A model generated the notes under the pieces. The model did no database searches. It had not been told where the DNA came from and worked only from the letters and a program-made list of their open reading frames with translations. Shown here piece by piece: positions 46,618 to 55,138 of a stretch of 64,000 nt of DNA. This DNA comes from Vishniacozyma victoriae. Its lineage: Eukaryota; Basidiomycota; Tremellomycetes; Tremellales; Bulleribasidiaceae. The position numbers were made by a program, and so were the translations under genes. Within the stretch, counting starts at the first letter, position 1. Every line of letters starts with the position of its first letter. The stretch spans positions 124,001 to 188,000 of the forward strand of contig JADPYG010000088.1 in assembly GCA_017654735.1 (NCBI GenBank), read 5' to 3'.

Positions 46618-46903
46618 GTCTATAGAGGTGCTAGAAGTATAGTCACCTTGTTGAATTAGAGCAGGAGTAGCTTGCAGCTTGAAAGGATAGTTGTATGGTT
46701 CCTGGAATTCAGCCCACGCCTATGTTACTAACACCTACTCTGGTGCCTAAACATCTGCTCACCGGTTTCTCACGGTCTTATAAGAACTGTTCCGCCAATC
46801 GCGACAGCCACATTTTAACCCCGACACTTTCCGCGCTGGTTGTTACTGCTCGTCTATACACCTATACACCCACTTACTTCATCCTTAATACACATCACCT
46901 CAA
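46618..46903. promoter_or_regulatory. divergent promoter of CFT1 and cytochrome c1 genes
   Basis: These 286 bases must serve both an mRNA 3'-end processing gene and a respiratory-chain gene. No single element is decisive. Confidence 0.5.
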
Positions 46904-48227
46904 ATGCTATCCCAGGCATCAGCAAGGTTCGCATCCCGGGCCGCACACATCGGAAAGGTTCGTCTCGAATTTCAAGCATCCATTTTAAGCAAGGCGATCT
47001 CTAGATCAGAGGGATGGAGATAATATTGGTGGAATACGTGACTGACAATCTAGGCCCGATTCAACTCTTCCGCCTCTACCCCCGCTCAATCCTTCCTCCA
47101 GTCCCGATCGGCTCTATTGGCTGCTACCGCTGCATCCGCCGGATCGATCGCATTCTACTCCCACGCATACGGTATCCCATTCCTCCCAGAGGCTTCAGCA
47201 AACACTGCCGCCGACGATGGATTGCACCCCGCCAGCTTCCCCTTCGCTCACAAGGGAATTTTTGACACTTTCGATCACTCTTCCATCAGGCGTGGATACC
47301 AGGGTGAGTGGGATCGGAGCATGAAAGGATGGGAATTGCCGCTAATCCTACAGTCTACCGTGAGGTTTGTTCCGCGTGTCACTCTCTAGATCGAATCGCA
47401 TGGCGAAACTTGGTCGGTGTCTCGCACACTGTCGATGAGGTCAAGGCAATGGCCGAGGAGGTTGAATACGAGGACGGACCCAATGATCAGGGAGAGATGT
47501 TCCAGAGACCGTTAGTCGGATCGGATCTCGTCTGAATGGACCGGAAGCTGACTGGCATAGAGGAAAGCTCGCCGATTACATGCCCGGACCCTACCCCAAC
47601 GAGGAGGCTGCTCGAGCCGGTAACGGAGGGTACGTTTATTGCATCGCGGGTAGAGATCGGCATGCTGATAATCTAGTGGTCTGCCCCCAGATCTTTCCCT
47701 CATTGTCAAGGCCCGACACGGAAATGCCGTGAGTTTGCCGATCATCTTCACAAGCTCGTTCGCTGATGGATATAGGATTACATCTACTCTCTACTAACCG
47801 GTTACGTCGACCCACCCCCAGGAGTTGCCGTCGCCGAGGGCATGAACTACAACCCGTAAGTTCGCGACGACTTTTACAGGACAACCACTGATGATCAGCT
47901 ACTTCCCCGGAGGTGGTATTGCCATGGCCCGAGTCCTTTACGACGGACTGGTCGAGTACGAGGACGGAACCCCCGCCAACACATCACAGATGGCCAAGGA
48001 TGTCACCAACTTCCTTGCCTGGACATCCGAGCCCGAGCACGATCAGAGGAAGAAGATGGGAATGCAGGTGAGTACGGATGCATTTGCCCATGGCCTCAGC
48101 TGACATATAGGCCGTCATCATTCTCTCCACCATGACCGCCATCTCGCTATATATCAAGCGATTCAAGTGGACCCCCATCAAAAACCGAAAGCTCTTCTAC
48201 AACCCCCCAAGCACGAAGTCTCACTAG
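46904..48227 (+). CDS. CYT1: cytochrome c1, haem subunit of respiratory complex III
   Basis: The protein carries electrons from the Rieske centre to cytochrome c in the inner membrane. It begins with a basic mitochondrial presequence ([18 protein letters not shown]) and a hydrophobic sorting segment ([18 protein letters not shown]). The haem site is CSACH in [20 protein letters not shown] near 47370. [28 protein letters not shown], and [16 protein letters not shown] follow. The axial methionine is expected in IAMARVL. The C-terminal helix ([19 protein letters not shown]) anchors it, ending PPSTKSH. About six introns. The family is complete with no odd residues. Confidence 0.96.
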
Positions 48228-48886: not shown

Positions 48887-51800
48887 ATGGTCCTACTTAA
48901 ATCATCTTTCGCCTCGGTCCTGGTCGGTGCTGCCTTGACGGCTTCCGCCTCTGGTGCCGCTCTACCTTCCATGCCCAATGGTGAATTGAATGCTAGAGAT
49001 GCTCAAGTAAGTTCTCTCACCACATGTTCGAGAAATAGCTGACACCTAGTCCGTTATGATGGTTCCTCATACCCCACTCGCACCGGCTGAGCAGGATATC
49101 AAGAACATCGCTAGTATGATGGGCAAGAAGATGAAGAAGAGGGAAGAGCAGTACAAGGGTGATGATGTCGATTTCACCCAGCACCCGGACAAACGTCTTT
49201 GGAGGGGACGACTAGGTCGACGAGGACCATTGAGGCAGAGGCAAGAGGACGAGGAAATGGCTCGGCAGGCTCAAGAGGTAGGTGATATGTTATCGCGAGG
49301 GTAAGTCTTACTGATGAACAGGTCGAGGAAGCCGAAGAGATGAGAGGCGACAGCCTTCCTGGAGGATCCGAGATGGATTTTGAGGCTCGTGGCTTACCTG
49401 CACGACCCAAGCAGCCTCAGGGTGAGACTCAGTACCAAGCTCCCCAGACCGAGGAGTCTCGACCTTCTGAGCCTGAAGTCGAGTCCGAGAATCGACAACA
49501 AGACATGCCTACCCAGAGTGGAAAGAAGGAGGATGTAAGTGATCCTATCACAGCGATCGTTCCAGTGCTGATGATTGCAGATGATCAACGTCGACATTGA
49601 TGGAGTCAAAGGTGATAGCCCAACTCATGGTCGGCTTGTCGACATTGATGCTCGACACTACGAGCGACCTGCTCATTACCATGATGTAAGTTCTACCTCT
49701 GATAGACAAGGCCCGAGCTAATTTGTAGTTGATCAACATCGACCTGAATGGTGTTCGAGGTGATAGCCCAGCTCATGGCAGCCTGTTGAACTTGGACGCT
49801 CGATCTCCCCGACACGACGATGATCGAGTCGTTGTTGTTGAAGGTGGCCGACACCGATATCATCACGATCACGATCACGACCATGACTATGACCACGATA
49901 GGAATGGACACGAGCACATTCACGAGCATATCCACTCTCGAAGCAATGTTGTCGTTGTTGACGAAGGCCGAGATCGAGGACGACACGGACATCACGGACA
50001 TCATGGTCATCGAAATGGCGATAATGTTGTTGTTGTTAACAAAAGGCGACATGATGACAATGATGAAGTTGTCGTTGTTGATGGAGATCGACACCACCGC
50101 CACCATGGCGATCATCATGGCCACCGACACGGAGGTGATGTTGTCGTGATGGACAAGAGGCGTCACAATGACGATGTCGTCTATGTCGATGGCGACTACC
50201 GATCCGATGGCGATATAATCTACGTCGATGGAAGCCGACACCACCGACACCATGGTGATGTCGTTTACGTCGATGGAGATAGGCATCACCGATATCATGA
50301 CCACGGAAATGTCAATGTTCATGAGCACATCCACGAGCATATCCACAAGCGAAGCCACAACGATCACGACGATATTGTTGTAGTCGATGGCGACAGGCAT
50401 GGACATAGGCACCATGGCCATGGTCATGGACACCACGACCACGACGAGACTGTCATCATCGACAAGAGACGACACAGGGACAATAACCATGGCCACCGAG
50501 GTCATCGAGGTCATCACAATCACCGACACTCCAATGTCAAGGTTATCCACAGGCCAGTAAGTGCTCCCCGTCCTGCTCCCGTGCCTGCTCCTGCTCCCCC
50601 TGCCCCCGTCCCTGTCCCTGCCCCTGTACCTGCCCCAGCGCCGAAACTTCCTACTCTCCCTCCTCCACCTCCTCCTCCTGCCCCGGAGCCTATTCCAGCC
50701 CCAGCCCCTGAGCCTGAGCCCGAGCCCGAGGCTCCTGTCGACGAGGAGCCTGTGGAGGAAGAGCCCGTGGAGGAGCCGGAGCCCGAGGACGAGCCTGAAG
50801 ACGAGGGCGAGGACGAGGGCGATATGGAGCGGAGGCGACTCGGGCGGCATGGGCACGGGGGGCACAGGCATGGACACAGCAGTGTAAATGCTCTAGCCCC
50901 GCTGAAGCACATTTGCTGACGATATAGGAAACTCGAGACGTTCAACAGAGGTCGCATGACCACCATCACGACGAGGTTATTGTGGTTGAAGATGGTCACC
51001 GACACCACCGACACCGACCTCTGATCGCTGTCGACAAGCGACAATCGGTCATGGAAAAGGTCAAGTCTTTCTTTACCGCCAGGAGCCATGACGACACTAC
51101 CATTGTCGAGACTGGACGACACCGACACGATGCCACGGTGGTCAAGACTGGTCGACATGGAGATACTGTGGTCAAGACTGGCCGACACGGTGATACTGTG
51201 ATTATCGACGGCCACCACAAGCGACACTCTACCAAGATCAATGTTATTGATGATGACCGAGAGTACGCTGATACTGTGATCTACCAAGACGGCCGTCATC
51301 ACCGACACGGTCGACCCATCTACATCGACTCTGGCCACTCTCGAGATGGAGTCAGAATCATTCCTCGAGATGAGATGGAGGAGGACGAGCTTGCGCCACT
51401 CTACAAGCGATCCCATGATCACGATGGACATCACAGTCACGGGCATCATGGAGGTCGACACAGGAATTGCCGAAACGGTGGATGTGATGATGACGATGTT
51501 ACAATCGTTACCAATAACAAGCGAGACATGGATATGGGTATGGGAGGTGCACCAGGATATATTGACGTCACCAGCCCCATGGCCAATTCGACTACCGCTC
51601 AAAAGATCGCCTCGCTCGTCTTGTCTACCTCTAACGGAACCGACTCGAACTCTACCTTTGTCTTCAACGCCTCCAACAATATCCGCACTCAGGTCTACCT
51701 TGTTCCTGTCAACACCACCTCTACCGATGCCGGGACCGCCGACAGTACCTCGCCTATTGCCGTCAACTTGAAGTTGCCTATCTTTAATGCTGCTTCGGCC

Positions 51801-52898
51801 GCGGTCGAGCCATACTGCGCTACCTTTGACCCTTCGCCCGCCTCGCCCGCACCCATGACTGTCATGCCATGTATGGCCGAGAACGATGTCCACCAAAGTC
51901 AAACTTTCCTTTACTATTCCGACACTGGAGTTATTCACCCTGATTGGAAACCTGCCGCTACCTCGCAGGATCTCTTGCAGTCGATGTCTGACTCTGTCGA
52001 CGATAGCGAGTCGATGATGAACATTGATGAAGTCTCTCCATCATCAATGATGGCTTCTTCGTCAATGATGGCCTCTTCGTCAATGATGGCCTCTTCGTCC
52101 ATGATGGCATCTTCATCCATGATGGCTTCTTCGTCAATGATGACTTCCATGACTTCCATGCCTATCATGACCTCCACGGCTTCGTCTTCGTCTTCTACCG
52201 CCTCCTCCCTCAAGACCTCCATCTCTGCTTCCATGCCCGCTGTCACTAGCATGTCGAGCTCTATGTCTTCTATCCCCAACCTCCCCTCCATGGCTGCTCC
52301 CACCGCCCCTTCGTTGGGTGCCGCCGCCGTCCCCACCATGGCTTCCGCTTCTTCCTCCGCCCCCAGCTCCATGCCCACTGGTTCCCCCTCAAACGTCACT
52401 TTGATCTTTTCCCCCGCCAACCCTTCCATCAAATCTGAGTCTATGTTGACTTCTGACTCGGACATGGCTCAGGCTGCTTTCGACGCTCCTTCCTCCAAGA
52501 TGGATGCTGAAAAGATGAAATCTACCCCTTCCGCTTCTTCAACTGATTCTACCTCCGCCGCCCCTTCTTCCACTTCTACTTCCGCTGGCCCAAAGCGATA
52601 CCCCGTCATCCCCCTTCCATCTGCCGATCCCGTTTCCGCCGAGACCTACAACGGCCAAGACGCTAGTGATCAGACTCTATCTGATGATGATTCTATGATG
52701 GACACCATGGGTATGGACGATGCCCAGACTGCTCCTATGTCCGGTCAAGACTTTACCGCTCCTTACCAGTAAGTAACCCATACTCAAACAACGGCAAACA
52801 AGTCTAACAATCCCACAGGCGCCGCTGATCATTCCAGATGGACATGGACTGCAGTCGACGAGGCTGCTGAAAACACTTCGCCTTCCGCTGTAGCTTAA
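48887..52898 (+). CDS. giant secreted histidine-rich repeat protein with Kex2-type sites
   Basis: I know no named family. A signal peptide (MVLLKSSFASVLVGAALTAS) opens it. Two repeated segments follow (INVDIDGVKGDSPTHG and INIDLNGVRGDSPAHG), each at the start of an exon. Then come many units of four beta-branched residues plus Asp-Gly-Asp-Arg (VVVVDGDR, VVYVDGDR, IVVVDGDR, TVIIDKRR) alternating with His-rich loops (HHRHHGDHHGHRHGG). A Pro/Ala then Glu-rich linker separates a second His block. A globular region with PYCATFDP and SQTFLYYSDTGVIHPDW and a Ser/Met/Thr-rich tail complete it. At least ten Lys-Arg sites could be cut by Kex2. Binding of Zn, Cu or Ni is a plausible inference. Seven exons; the last joins as PYQ-WTWTAVDEAA. 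Confidence 0.78.
49738..50535 (+). repeat. histidine-rich coding repeats, first block
   Basis: Within one exon, about a dozen units start with a four-residue strand such as VVVV, VVYV, IIYV or IVVV, then Asp/Asn/Glu, then Gly or Lys-Arg, then a loop of His, Asp, Gly and Arg. The loops HEHIHEHIH occur twice. The DNA reflects this as many GTTGTTGTTGA and CACCGACACCA strings. A second, shorter block lies at about 50960-51320. Confidence 0.8.
52041..52142 (+). repeat. 18-bp tandem coding repeat (Ser-Ser-Ser-Met-Met-Ala)
   Basis: TCAATGATGGCTTCTTCG-like units repeat five or six times, encoding SSSMMA each time. They lie in the Ser/Met-rich tail of the His-rich secreted protein. Methionine clusters can bind Cu(I), so metal binding may extend beyond the histidine blocks; this is inference. 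Confidence 0.8.
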
Positions 52899-53008: not shown

Positions 53009-54799
53009 TTACTTTTTGGCATTAATCGTAAACATCTTCATTCCAGATCTTTTCTTGTTTCCAGTGTCGGCCCCGCCGAAACGCCTTTTCAGTCGACTAC
53101 TCGCGAAAGCATCCTCCTCCGACCTCGGACTGCTCGATTTGAGGATAAGTGGTTTGATGTCCTGCGAACTCGTGGTCGCCATACGAAATGGATTGAGCGA
53201 TGGTTTGCTTGGTCTGCGGATCGTGCTCTGAGACTCGAGTGGTGGTGAGGACACGGGCGATGATGACCGGGTAGGACGGAATGGACCTGAATGTTTGACC
53301 TTTGTAGCGCCAAAGATATCACCGACGAGGTTGTCTCCTTTAGCCGAGCGAATCTGGGATGCCGATCCGGTAGACTCTTGTGGTTGATGTGCACGCACAC
53401 TAGTCCCCCAAGTCATTTCCTCCCATCCATCCGGGATCATCCTCACCATCATCAACCTCGGCCCACCCTTGATCTCTACCTTTTTCGCCTTTTTCGCCTT
53501 TGAAGGGTCAAAGATCTTCGGTTTCGGTTTCTTTTCCTCTAGCCACGGTTGGCGTACAGATCGGACATTCCCGTCTTTATCCCAATCTGAGGTTATTCGT
53601 TTCCTAACGATCCCTTTTTCTTGATCGTCCTTGATCTGCCAAGCTAGAGGAAGATTCTTGACTGCTCGCCGAAGTTCGCTGACGGGATTGGCGATATTTG
53701 CCGCGCCTTGTCCGTATACCATTCCAACTCCATCTGCACGATATGTTGGTGCTTGATGTGATGATCTCATAGGAGCTAGGGCGGGATTATCGGGGAAAGG
53801 GGTTAAATGGGGCGAGATCTGGGTGGTAGTCGGGACGATGTGGAGAGCGGTGTAATCGGTAATCTTCATCAGGGTCGAGCAGAGGTACGACATGACTTCG
53901 GAGGGGGTCTTGTCGGCTGAAAAGAGGTCGAGCAGGCCTTCGGTACAGGGCTGGAACCCGGGATAAGGAAACAAGGTAGCGGATTGACGATTGAAAATAT
54001 CAATAGCGACGTCCGTACATGATGTCTCGCGAACATCTACCATCAGTCAAGGTTAACAGTTCAGACATGGAGGAAATGTACCGAGCATGACCAGTCCTGG
54101 GAATCTGGCAAAATTCTTCATCGACTTGTCGGTGATCCCTCTACATCCGACCAAAGACCAAGCACGTAGCCTGCACATTCCCTTTGAACCAGGTAATTCC
54201 AATGCCGAAGTCAATAACGTGATCCCATAGTCTGAAACACTACATCCCTGCATCCACAAAGCAGTCAGATGCGTACACCACCTTAACCCCTGGATAGTCT
54301 GATCGTCGATCGGTCCATTTGAATTATTGAGTGATATCGTCGTCAGGAAACGAAATATCGAAGGCGCAGCTAATCCGGTTGGATCCCGGATATCCAGCGT
54401 CGGGAGAAGCGTTATTGGATGCCCTTGCATTCGTTGGAGCAGGTGAACACATGGTAGACCTAGCACGTGATCATCCGCTTCGTTTGGTAGGTAGAGAGCT
54501 TGTATAGCCCATATTGTTGTCTCATCCGGATGAGTATTGACCCGTCCATACATGTCTTCATCGTAATTCCGGTCAGCTCGTACTCGAGCGATGATGCGCC
54601 GGATCAAATGAGGGGGTAGTGAAGCGAATGATTGCAGGGAGAATTGATCGAATTTGACAGAGATCGCGGTGAGGGCACATGATGATAGTGTCTTGACGGC
54701 TGATGTTGACTGGGGCTTGTAGTCGGGCCGTAATCGCGAGAATGGCAATGGGGTGAGTAGCCAATTTGGCTTGGATGATGTGGCTCTGTGCGTCAGCAT
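53009..54799 (-). CDS. leucine-rich-repeat-like protein with basic C-terminal tail
   Basis: The first two thirds have irregular LRRs of the cysteine-containing kind. FSLQSFASLPPHLIRRII, then IQGLRWCTHLTALWMQGCSVSDYGITLL, then LRAWSLVGCRGITDKSMKNFARFPGLVMLDVRETSCTD show this. An intron of about 50 bases near 54030-54082 joins VML to DVRETS. The last third is disordered and basic, with KKPKPKIFDPSKAKKAKKVEIKG and an end KKRSGMKMFTINAKK. I start at 54799 (MLTHRATSSKPN), about 75 bases after a TATATAAG box on the minus strand near 54875. The nearest idea is an Amn1/F-box-type LRR protein; no F-box is visible. Confidence 0.68.
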
Positions 54800-55138
54800 A
54801 TCAATGAGATCTTTCACGTCACTTTGACTGACCTGAACGACTGATCTGATGCCTCTGACCCTGCTGCTGTTCTTATATAGTCCATAGCTGCCCACCGTAC
54901 ATGAGTGATATGGTACGTGATTTCTATAAAATGAGAAATCAGACGCGTCCCCTCCCCCCTCCACCCTCATATCCCATCGGAAAGATCCGAGAGATAACGG
55001 AATCAAACTGGATATATCAATCAATCGTTAATCGTCAACGGATAGAGTATCAGCAGACACACCTAAAGAGCACTCTCCTTTCATCAAATCCACTTCTATC
55101 ACATAACGAGATCAACGGCAGAGCTCCTAGTGAGCAAG
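54800..55138. promoter_or_regulatory. divergent promoter of LRR-like and UPF2 genes
   Basis: These 339 bases lie between diverging starts. A TATATAAG box lies on the minus strand near 54875, oriented to the LRR-like gene. Confidence 0.5.

Follow-up and report, generated by a model that had tools for sequence, protein, structure and literature searches.

The window analysed here is a stretch of 64,000 nucleotides from Vishniacozyma victoriae (assembly GCA_017654735.1, contig JADPYG010000088.1, positions 124,001 to 188,000), and the gene of interest lies on its forward strand at 48887..52898. We propose, with moderate confidence, that this gene encodes a Kex2-processed polyprotein that would release His-rich, probably Zn- or Cu-binding hairpin peptides together with a beta-trefoil protein. 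The family to which the protein belongs, the pattern of its dibasic sites, the trefoil model and a Kex2-like gene in the same genome come from sequence; secretion, cleavage, metal binding and biological role are inferred. Among these proposals, Kex2-type processing is well supported by the sequence pattern, and the His pieces probably serve as metal ligands, as judged from their composition and from analogy with the peptide shepherin I. An earlier note on this DNA had likewise suggested metal binding, which stands as a reasonable inference from composition.

Three protein searches, each of which scored about 8000 candidates, returned 61 homologous proteins (29, then 15 new, then 17 new), and the named ones are all from Basidiomycota. 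The best-kept feature of this family is one that the earlier note overlooked, namely its dibasic sites, of which the window protein has, among others, the following:

50041..50049, forward strand: dibasic site NKRR
50155..50163, forward strand: dibasic site DKRR
50347..50352, forward strand: dibasic site HKR
50464..50472, forward strand: dibasic site DKRR
51519..51524, forward strand: Kex2-type site adjoining the C-terminal domain, conserved across the family

Of the 46 sequences tested, which comprise 45 homologues and the window protein, all but P0026 carry KR or RR no more than 20 amino acids (aa) upstream of the start of the C-terminal domain; this count of 45 compares with 16.7 expected from the remaining 20-aa windows in the identical pre-regions. 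This test used 46 of 62 sequences (the 61 proteins and that of the window) and left out 16, either because the start motif is absent (12 proteins: P0018, P0019, P0041-P0044, P0054 and P0057-P0061) or because fewer than 60 aa lie upstream (P0002, P0004, P0016 and P0056). Among those left out, KR or RR is found near the domain in P0002, P0004, P0057 and P0060 (the last by eye), and RR lies 16-17 aa upstream in P0056 and P0061; no dibasic site is present within 21 aa in P0016 and P0018 (both with almost no upstream sequence), P0054 or P0058. A second, looser domain locator, which misplaces some starts (P0005, P0007 and P0050) and fails to locate nine proteins, gives 43 of 48 against 18.2 expected.

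The window protein contains 10 KR pairs against 2.7 in shuffled sequences (z 4.9) and no RK against 2.6. KR reaches a z of at least 2 in 23 of the 25 Tremellomycete-type sequences (the exceptions being P0014 and P0017) and in 9 of the 20 Agaricomycete-type ones; there is no KR excess in Trametes, Cubamyces, Postia, Abortiporus and Somion, which carry RR. RK is near or under expectation in most members, although Piloderma has 6 against 2.2. The genome also holds a candidate for the processing enzyme, a Kex2-like gene recognised by family matches to Peptidase_S8 and P_proprotein about 0.6 kb apart on the same strand of one contig (C6).

We envisage that the gene product would be a secreted preproprotein whose signal peptide is removed first and which late-Golgi Kex2 would then cut after KR or RR. 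This should release (i) a number of His-rich peptides, each about 38-63 residues long, some of them strand - His loop - strand hairpins such as HDDNDEVVVVDGDRHHRHHGDHHGHRHGGDVVVMD; (ii) longer or non-His pieces, including a short Trp/Arg one; and (iii) the conserved beta-trefoil domain, with its last strand supplied from beyond a Ser/Met-rich linker. Binding of extracellular Zn(II), Cu(II) or Ni(II) is the likeliest property of these His peptides, which might act in metal buffering, as metal-dependent antimicrobials like shepherin and histatin 5, or as metal-stabilised fibrils. A separate activity is probable for the trefoil, perhaps carbohydrate or wall binding.

The peptides would derive from the following region, for which, as throughout, residue numbers refer to a 1240-aa model of the product:

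49813..50562, forward strand: His block 1, residues 251-500, with strand (VVVVDGDR) - His loop - strand (VVVMD) units
50563..50838, forward strand: Pro/Glu-rich linker with ERRR at its end
50839..51524, forward strand: His block 2, residues 593-806, containing the intron 50884-50927 and KR at 51036-51041, 51219-51224, 51405-51410 and 51519-51524
51411..51524, forward strand: final His-rich piece ahead of the domain, SHDHDGHHSHGHHGGRHRNCRNGGCDDDDVTIVTNNKR; it has a C-x4-C pair, which reads CRHGRC or CRDGRC in several Tremellomycetes

Cutting the window protein at KR and RR yields His-rich pieces of 38-63 residues, along with a 231-residue piece (residues 99-329), which takes in the first third of His block 1, and one of 122 residues that carries the Pro/Glu linker. 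Two pieces of the form strand - His loop - strand - KRR, one beginning at residue 330 and the other at 431, share 24 identities over 38 aligned positions (z 11.8). Three related pieces (starting at 330, 368 and 431) are found in the window protein by a loose similarity rule, which detects at least three in 16 of 44 members and six in Phlebiopsis. In Phlebiopsis P0047, five consecutive His-rich pieces of 24-32 aa start with SP and end with KR or RR, forming near-perfect Kex2 repeats (SPHEHHDKVVVSGNHDHVDVHHKR). The repeats of P0047 are the clearest; Schizophyllum commune H4-8 P0049 has a KR next to its domain, with just 4 pieces, none of them forming a repeated group. His is the first residue after the cut at 33% of 214 sites in Tremellomycetes, against a background of 11.6%, and is not enriched in Agaricomycetes (14% against 12.6%). 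Once released, the last His-rich piece and its Tremellomycete homologues would each be closed into a small loop by a disulphide between the two Cys of the C-x4-C pair.

Among the polypores, Trametes, Postia and Cubamyces carry SPSP, SPEP, SPAPEP or SPLPAPEP ahead of some His tracts, partly after a single Arg, and these spacers stand immediately ahead of HHHH in Postia (SPEP and SPAPEP) and in Trametes sanguinea (SPSP and SPLPAPEP). Such spacers match the XP/XA signature of Ste13 described for Kex2-processed repeat proteins (KEPs; PMC6339444, PMC9769878), for some of which cutting after a single Arg has also been proposed. In raw counts taken without a null model, Agaricomycetes have XP or XA after 28 of their 101 dibasic sites and Tremellomycetes after 15 of their 214.

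The KEPs share with our family a signal-peptide-like N-terminus, related pieces between KR or RR sites and, in some polypore members, the XP/XA spacers; Phlebiopsis P0047 looks like a good KEP. The family differs in its long diverged repeats, its long conserved non-repeat C-terminal domain, its His-rich hairpin-like cores and its spread over two subphyla. A KEP is defined by three or more repeats lying between Kex2 sites, each of at least 8 aa and at most 100 aa (PMC7329392), and our counts (three in the window protein, six in Phlebiopsis, at least three in 16 of 44 members) use a looser rule than the published pipeline. The same source mentions two KEP types with an HH motif, which might belong to the present family.

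A separate observation concerns a piece that recurs in Kwoniella, for instance in P0009 (residues 325-344) and P0030, where it is flanked by KR sites. Its sequence, SPKxGISSKLAGLGRAFLKR, is cationic and looks amphipathic, and it could be a bioactive peptide in its own right. The window protein has QSVMEKVKSFFTARS in a similar place.

The His-rich strand-loop units described in the earlier note are indeed present. Residues 241-806 contain 14 runs of at least three V/I/Y residues against 2.2 expected from composition-preserving shuffles (the maximum of 2000 being 9), and thus the strand pattern does not arise by chance; His makes up 24.8% of residues 251-500 and 15.4% of residues 593-806. The figure of about twenty units was generous, since a strict count gives 14. 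Their spacing in the window protein is irregular (V/I autocorrelation, taken for lags up to 39, peaks weakly at about 13, 26 and 38-39 residues), and lies near 11-14 residues in the Kwoniella proteins inspected. The strong excess of strand runs, the Kwoniella DTTVVNNGRHG-like units at 11-14-residue spacing and the freedom of His block 1 from dibasic cuts up to the site at 50041 would all suit an intact secreted protein whose strands stack as a beta-solenoid or as an amyloid-like, metal-loaded matrix. However, we regard this design, which the earlier note had put forward for a single protein, as very improbable, because dibasic sites would split much of the array into strand - His loop - strand pieces and set it apart from the C-terminal domain, and the model shows most of block 2 as disordered. 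Specifically, an AlphaFold model whose only His array is that of block 2 gives residues 608-806 (the exon 6 part, 50928-51524) a predicted local distance difference test score (pLDDT) of 29-50 and no strands, a result that must be read knowing that AlphaFold can be weak on repeats. The released peptides might still assemble in an amyloid-like manner.

The Ustilago maydis Rep1 repellents, in which we know of no His arrays or trefoil, offer a model for such assembly, in which the released peptides would build an amyloid-like fibrillar coat on the hyphal or cell wall and His would tune assembly by pH or metal. In agreement with this idea, VVVV and VIVV strands lie within Kex2-bounded pieces, repellents are said to form amyloid-like fibrils (PMC9769878), and Zn binding induces both fibrils and antifungal activity in the His-rich shepherin I (PMC10698721). 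The pieces are nevertheless very hydrophilic apart from their short strands, and we consider a wall coat of this kind quite improbable. Rep1 resembles the family in that its Kex2-released basidiomycete peptides act on the hyphal wall, and differs in that they are 37 aa long (PMC6339444).

The named members of the family comprise 12 from Kwoniella and others from Naematelia, Tremella, Dioszegia, Tremellales sp. Uapishka_1 and Tagirdzhanova-0007. Further members come from Trametes, Cubamyces, Ganoderma, Postia, Fomitopsis, Phlebiopsis, Abortiporus, Somion, Coniferiporia, Piloderma, Tulasnella, Schizophyllum, Mycena, Amanita and Lentinula, and there is a single distant protein from Sporobolomyces. 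In contrast to the 12 Kwoniella proteins, no Cryptococcus protein is named in these searches of about 8000 scored candidates each, and loss in Cryptococcus is possible, as a lead rather than a proof. With Sporobolomyces as the root, the FastTree built from the domain (topology only) sets Agaricomycetes apart from Tremellomycetes, groups genera largely as expected and places the window protein as Tremellomycete-like.

What is kept in the family is the domain with its C, C, SQxF and GxIxPxW, the NVTLxFxP motif, the dibasic sites and, in many members, a TAPYxW tail. The His arrays vary, reading VVVVDGDRHHRHH in the window protein, DTTVVNNGRHG in Kwoniella and DKVVVKGDHDHVNVHRR in polypores. The earlier note had held that orthologues lacking His loops as well as strand periodicity would refute its account, and this is partly what we find: His makes up only about 2-3.5% of the sequence before the domain in Dioszegia P0014 (3.4-3.5%), Piloderma P0051 (2.5-2.7%), Mycena P0054 (2.2%) and P0061 (2.0%), whereas other members are His-rich. 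The arrays are thus not invariant, and the existence of His-poor orthologues suggests that the trefoil has its own role.

In an alternative account, the His arrays would be no more than a pro-region or a flexible spacer, which helps the trefoil protein to fold, to stay soluble or to be transported and which Kex2 removes, leaving peptides without metal function of their own. The better preservation of the domain and its adjoining dibasic site than of the repeats would be expected on this basis, as would the several His-poor orthologues. However, strand-His pieces recur in both Tremellomycetes and Agaricomycetes, and HDH-type His runs appear also in the single Sporobolomyces protein. Furthermore, the His-poor members are nested among His-rich ones in the gene tree, and thus His richness looks ancestral and mostly kept. 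The XP/XA spacers ahead of His tracts in several polypores would also be odd for a throw-away spacer. On balance we judge such a passive role to be unlikely, and continue to favour a polyprotein that releases functional His-rich peptides.

The C-terminal domain is modelled as a beta-trefoil fold, with these parts:

51549..51962, forward strand: beta-trefoil domain, main part, residues 815-952, from the predicted structure
51963..52397, forward strand: Ser/Met-rich linker, with an 18-bp x 5.8 Met/Ser repeat at 52044-52147
52398..52415, forward strand: last strand of the modelled trefoil, NVTLIF, with pLDDT about 90 and kept in the family

The modelled trefoil is closed by a strand that lies about 145 aa further on, beyond a mostly low-confidence linker. 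Given that none of 56 members has a Pfam match at E<=0.01, in line with the earlier note, which knew of no described fungal family with such a design, we class the domain as a trefoil fold and not as a member of a lectin family. Pfam searches with pieces of the window protein found no match at E<=1 for exons 5 and 6; the N-terminal piece had a single match, below cut-off (0.054). A PDB sequence search gave no usable match. NCBIfam searches with five proteins produced only sub-cutoff matches, all from Schizophyllum P0049, which were set aside as probable low complexity: one is a Ser-rich family at E 0.0012, the other the zinc protein ZrgA at E 0.0048, where the score of 16.5 bits falls short of the cut-off of 185. 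The SQxF...GxIxPxW of the domain recalls the QxW motif. In its predicted fold the domain resembles known beta-trefoil proteins (the ricin-B-like lectins SSA and PSL, macrocypins and IL-1), and the family differs from these by its lack of a Pfam match and by the roughly 145 residues, mostly low-confidence linker, ahead of the last strand.

Kex2-processed polyproteins are already known as a kind, as is a fungal trefoil protein with a Kex2 site, the chimerolectin CCTX2 of Coprinopsis cinerea. Yeast Kex2p cuts CCTX2 in vitro, but that protein combines four ricin-B-like trefoils with another domain, and the available part of the source mentions no His arrays (PMC13324453). Shepherin I from a plant and the human histatin 5, a His-rich, Zn-binding peptide (PMC7559477), differ from the family in that several Asp-rich cores lie here in one fungal precursor, and a sequence relation is not expected; a search of PMC10698721 for a shepherin precursor found none. 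The DELD proteins of Serendipita indica are likewise small secreted basidiomycete proteins with regularly spaced His, but are 101-135 aa long and have His/Ala helices and an RSIDELD tail (PMC3192844). The literature searched holds no description that we could find of the family, of its His-hairpin cores or of their coupling to a split trefoil, although supplementary KEP tables, which fell outside the search, may list it; no papers mention six homologue locus tags.

The reading of the gene itself in the earlier note was correct in coordinates and strand, and splicing gives an open frame whose ends match homologues (an MVxxKS start, MVQIKSSVLVAAAA in Kwoniella, and a TAPYEWRWT tail). Its remaining features are as follows:

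48887..52898, forward strand: whole gene, seven exons, open frame with GT-AG introns, both ends matching homologues
48887-49006, 49095-49277 (or 49050-49277), 49322-49534, 49581-49685, 49729-50883, 50928-52768 and 52838-52898, forward strand: exons
48887..48958, forward strand: putative signal peptide MVLLKSSFASVLVGAALTASASGA, by inspection, with homologue N-termini alike
49191..49235, forward strand: KR, then the basic Trp/Arg segment LWRGRLGRRGPLR, with a like segment in other Tremellomycetes (WKGKxSKRGPWR in Kwoniella)
49582-49655 and 49730-49803, forward strand: two diverged copies of INVDIDGVKGDSPxHGxLxxxDAR, 74% identical in DNA
52838..52898, forward strand: last exon, encoding the tail TAPYQWTW together with the end of exon 6

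The six short GT-AG introns lie at 49007-49094 (or 49007-49049), 49278-49321, 49535-49580, 49686-49728, 50884-50927 and 52769-52837, and the acceptor chosen for the first sets the product at 1225 or 1240 aa. From N- to C-terminus the product comprises a hydrophobic leader, a basic Trp/Arg segment, two diverged INVDIDGVKGDSP elements, His block 1, the Pro/Glu linker, His block 2, the globular domain with two Cys, the Ser/Met linker with its 18-bp repeat, NVTLIFSPANP and the TAPYQWTW tail. The putative secreted-type N-terminus, the Pro/Glu linker, the Cys-containing globular part and the Met-rich repeats thus appear as previously described. No second copy of the C-terminal domain was found among the best candidates of a six-frame search of the organism's own genome (11.6 Mb, 17 contigs). 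Upstream, at 46900-48225 on the forward strand, lies a gene that we take by eye to encode mitochondrial cytochrome c1 with a terminal membrane anchor. Downstream, convergent frames at 53009-55027 on the reverse strand have sub-cutoff matches to Transp_inhibit (E 0.028) and to a leucine-rich repeat (E 0.11).

Taken further, and only tentatively, these elements might constitute a conserved basidiomycete metallopeptide system. In it, Kex2 would release His-rich hairpin peptides, which Ste13 would also trim in polypores and which in some polypores would bear free His tracts at the N-terminus, suited to capturing Cu/Zn. These peptides would join with a trefoil of split last strand in scavenging metals or deploying them at the cell surface or against competitors. 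The family is carried by Tremellomycetes, by Agaricomycetes and, via one distant member, by Sporobolomyces, and Schizophyllum commune, which has a member, is described as a laboratory species with Cas9 methods. With cores that resemble metal ligands and a companion trefoil, such a family would open the extracellular handling of metals by secreted ribosomal peptides to direct testing in Basidiomycota.

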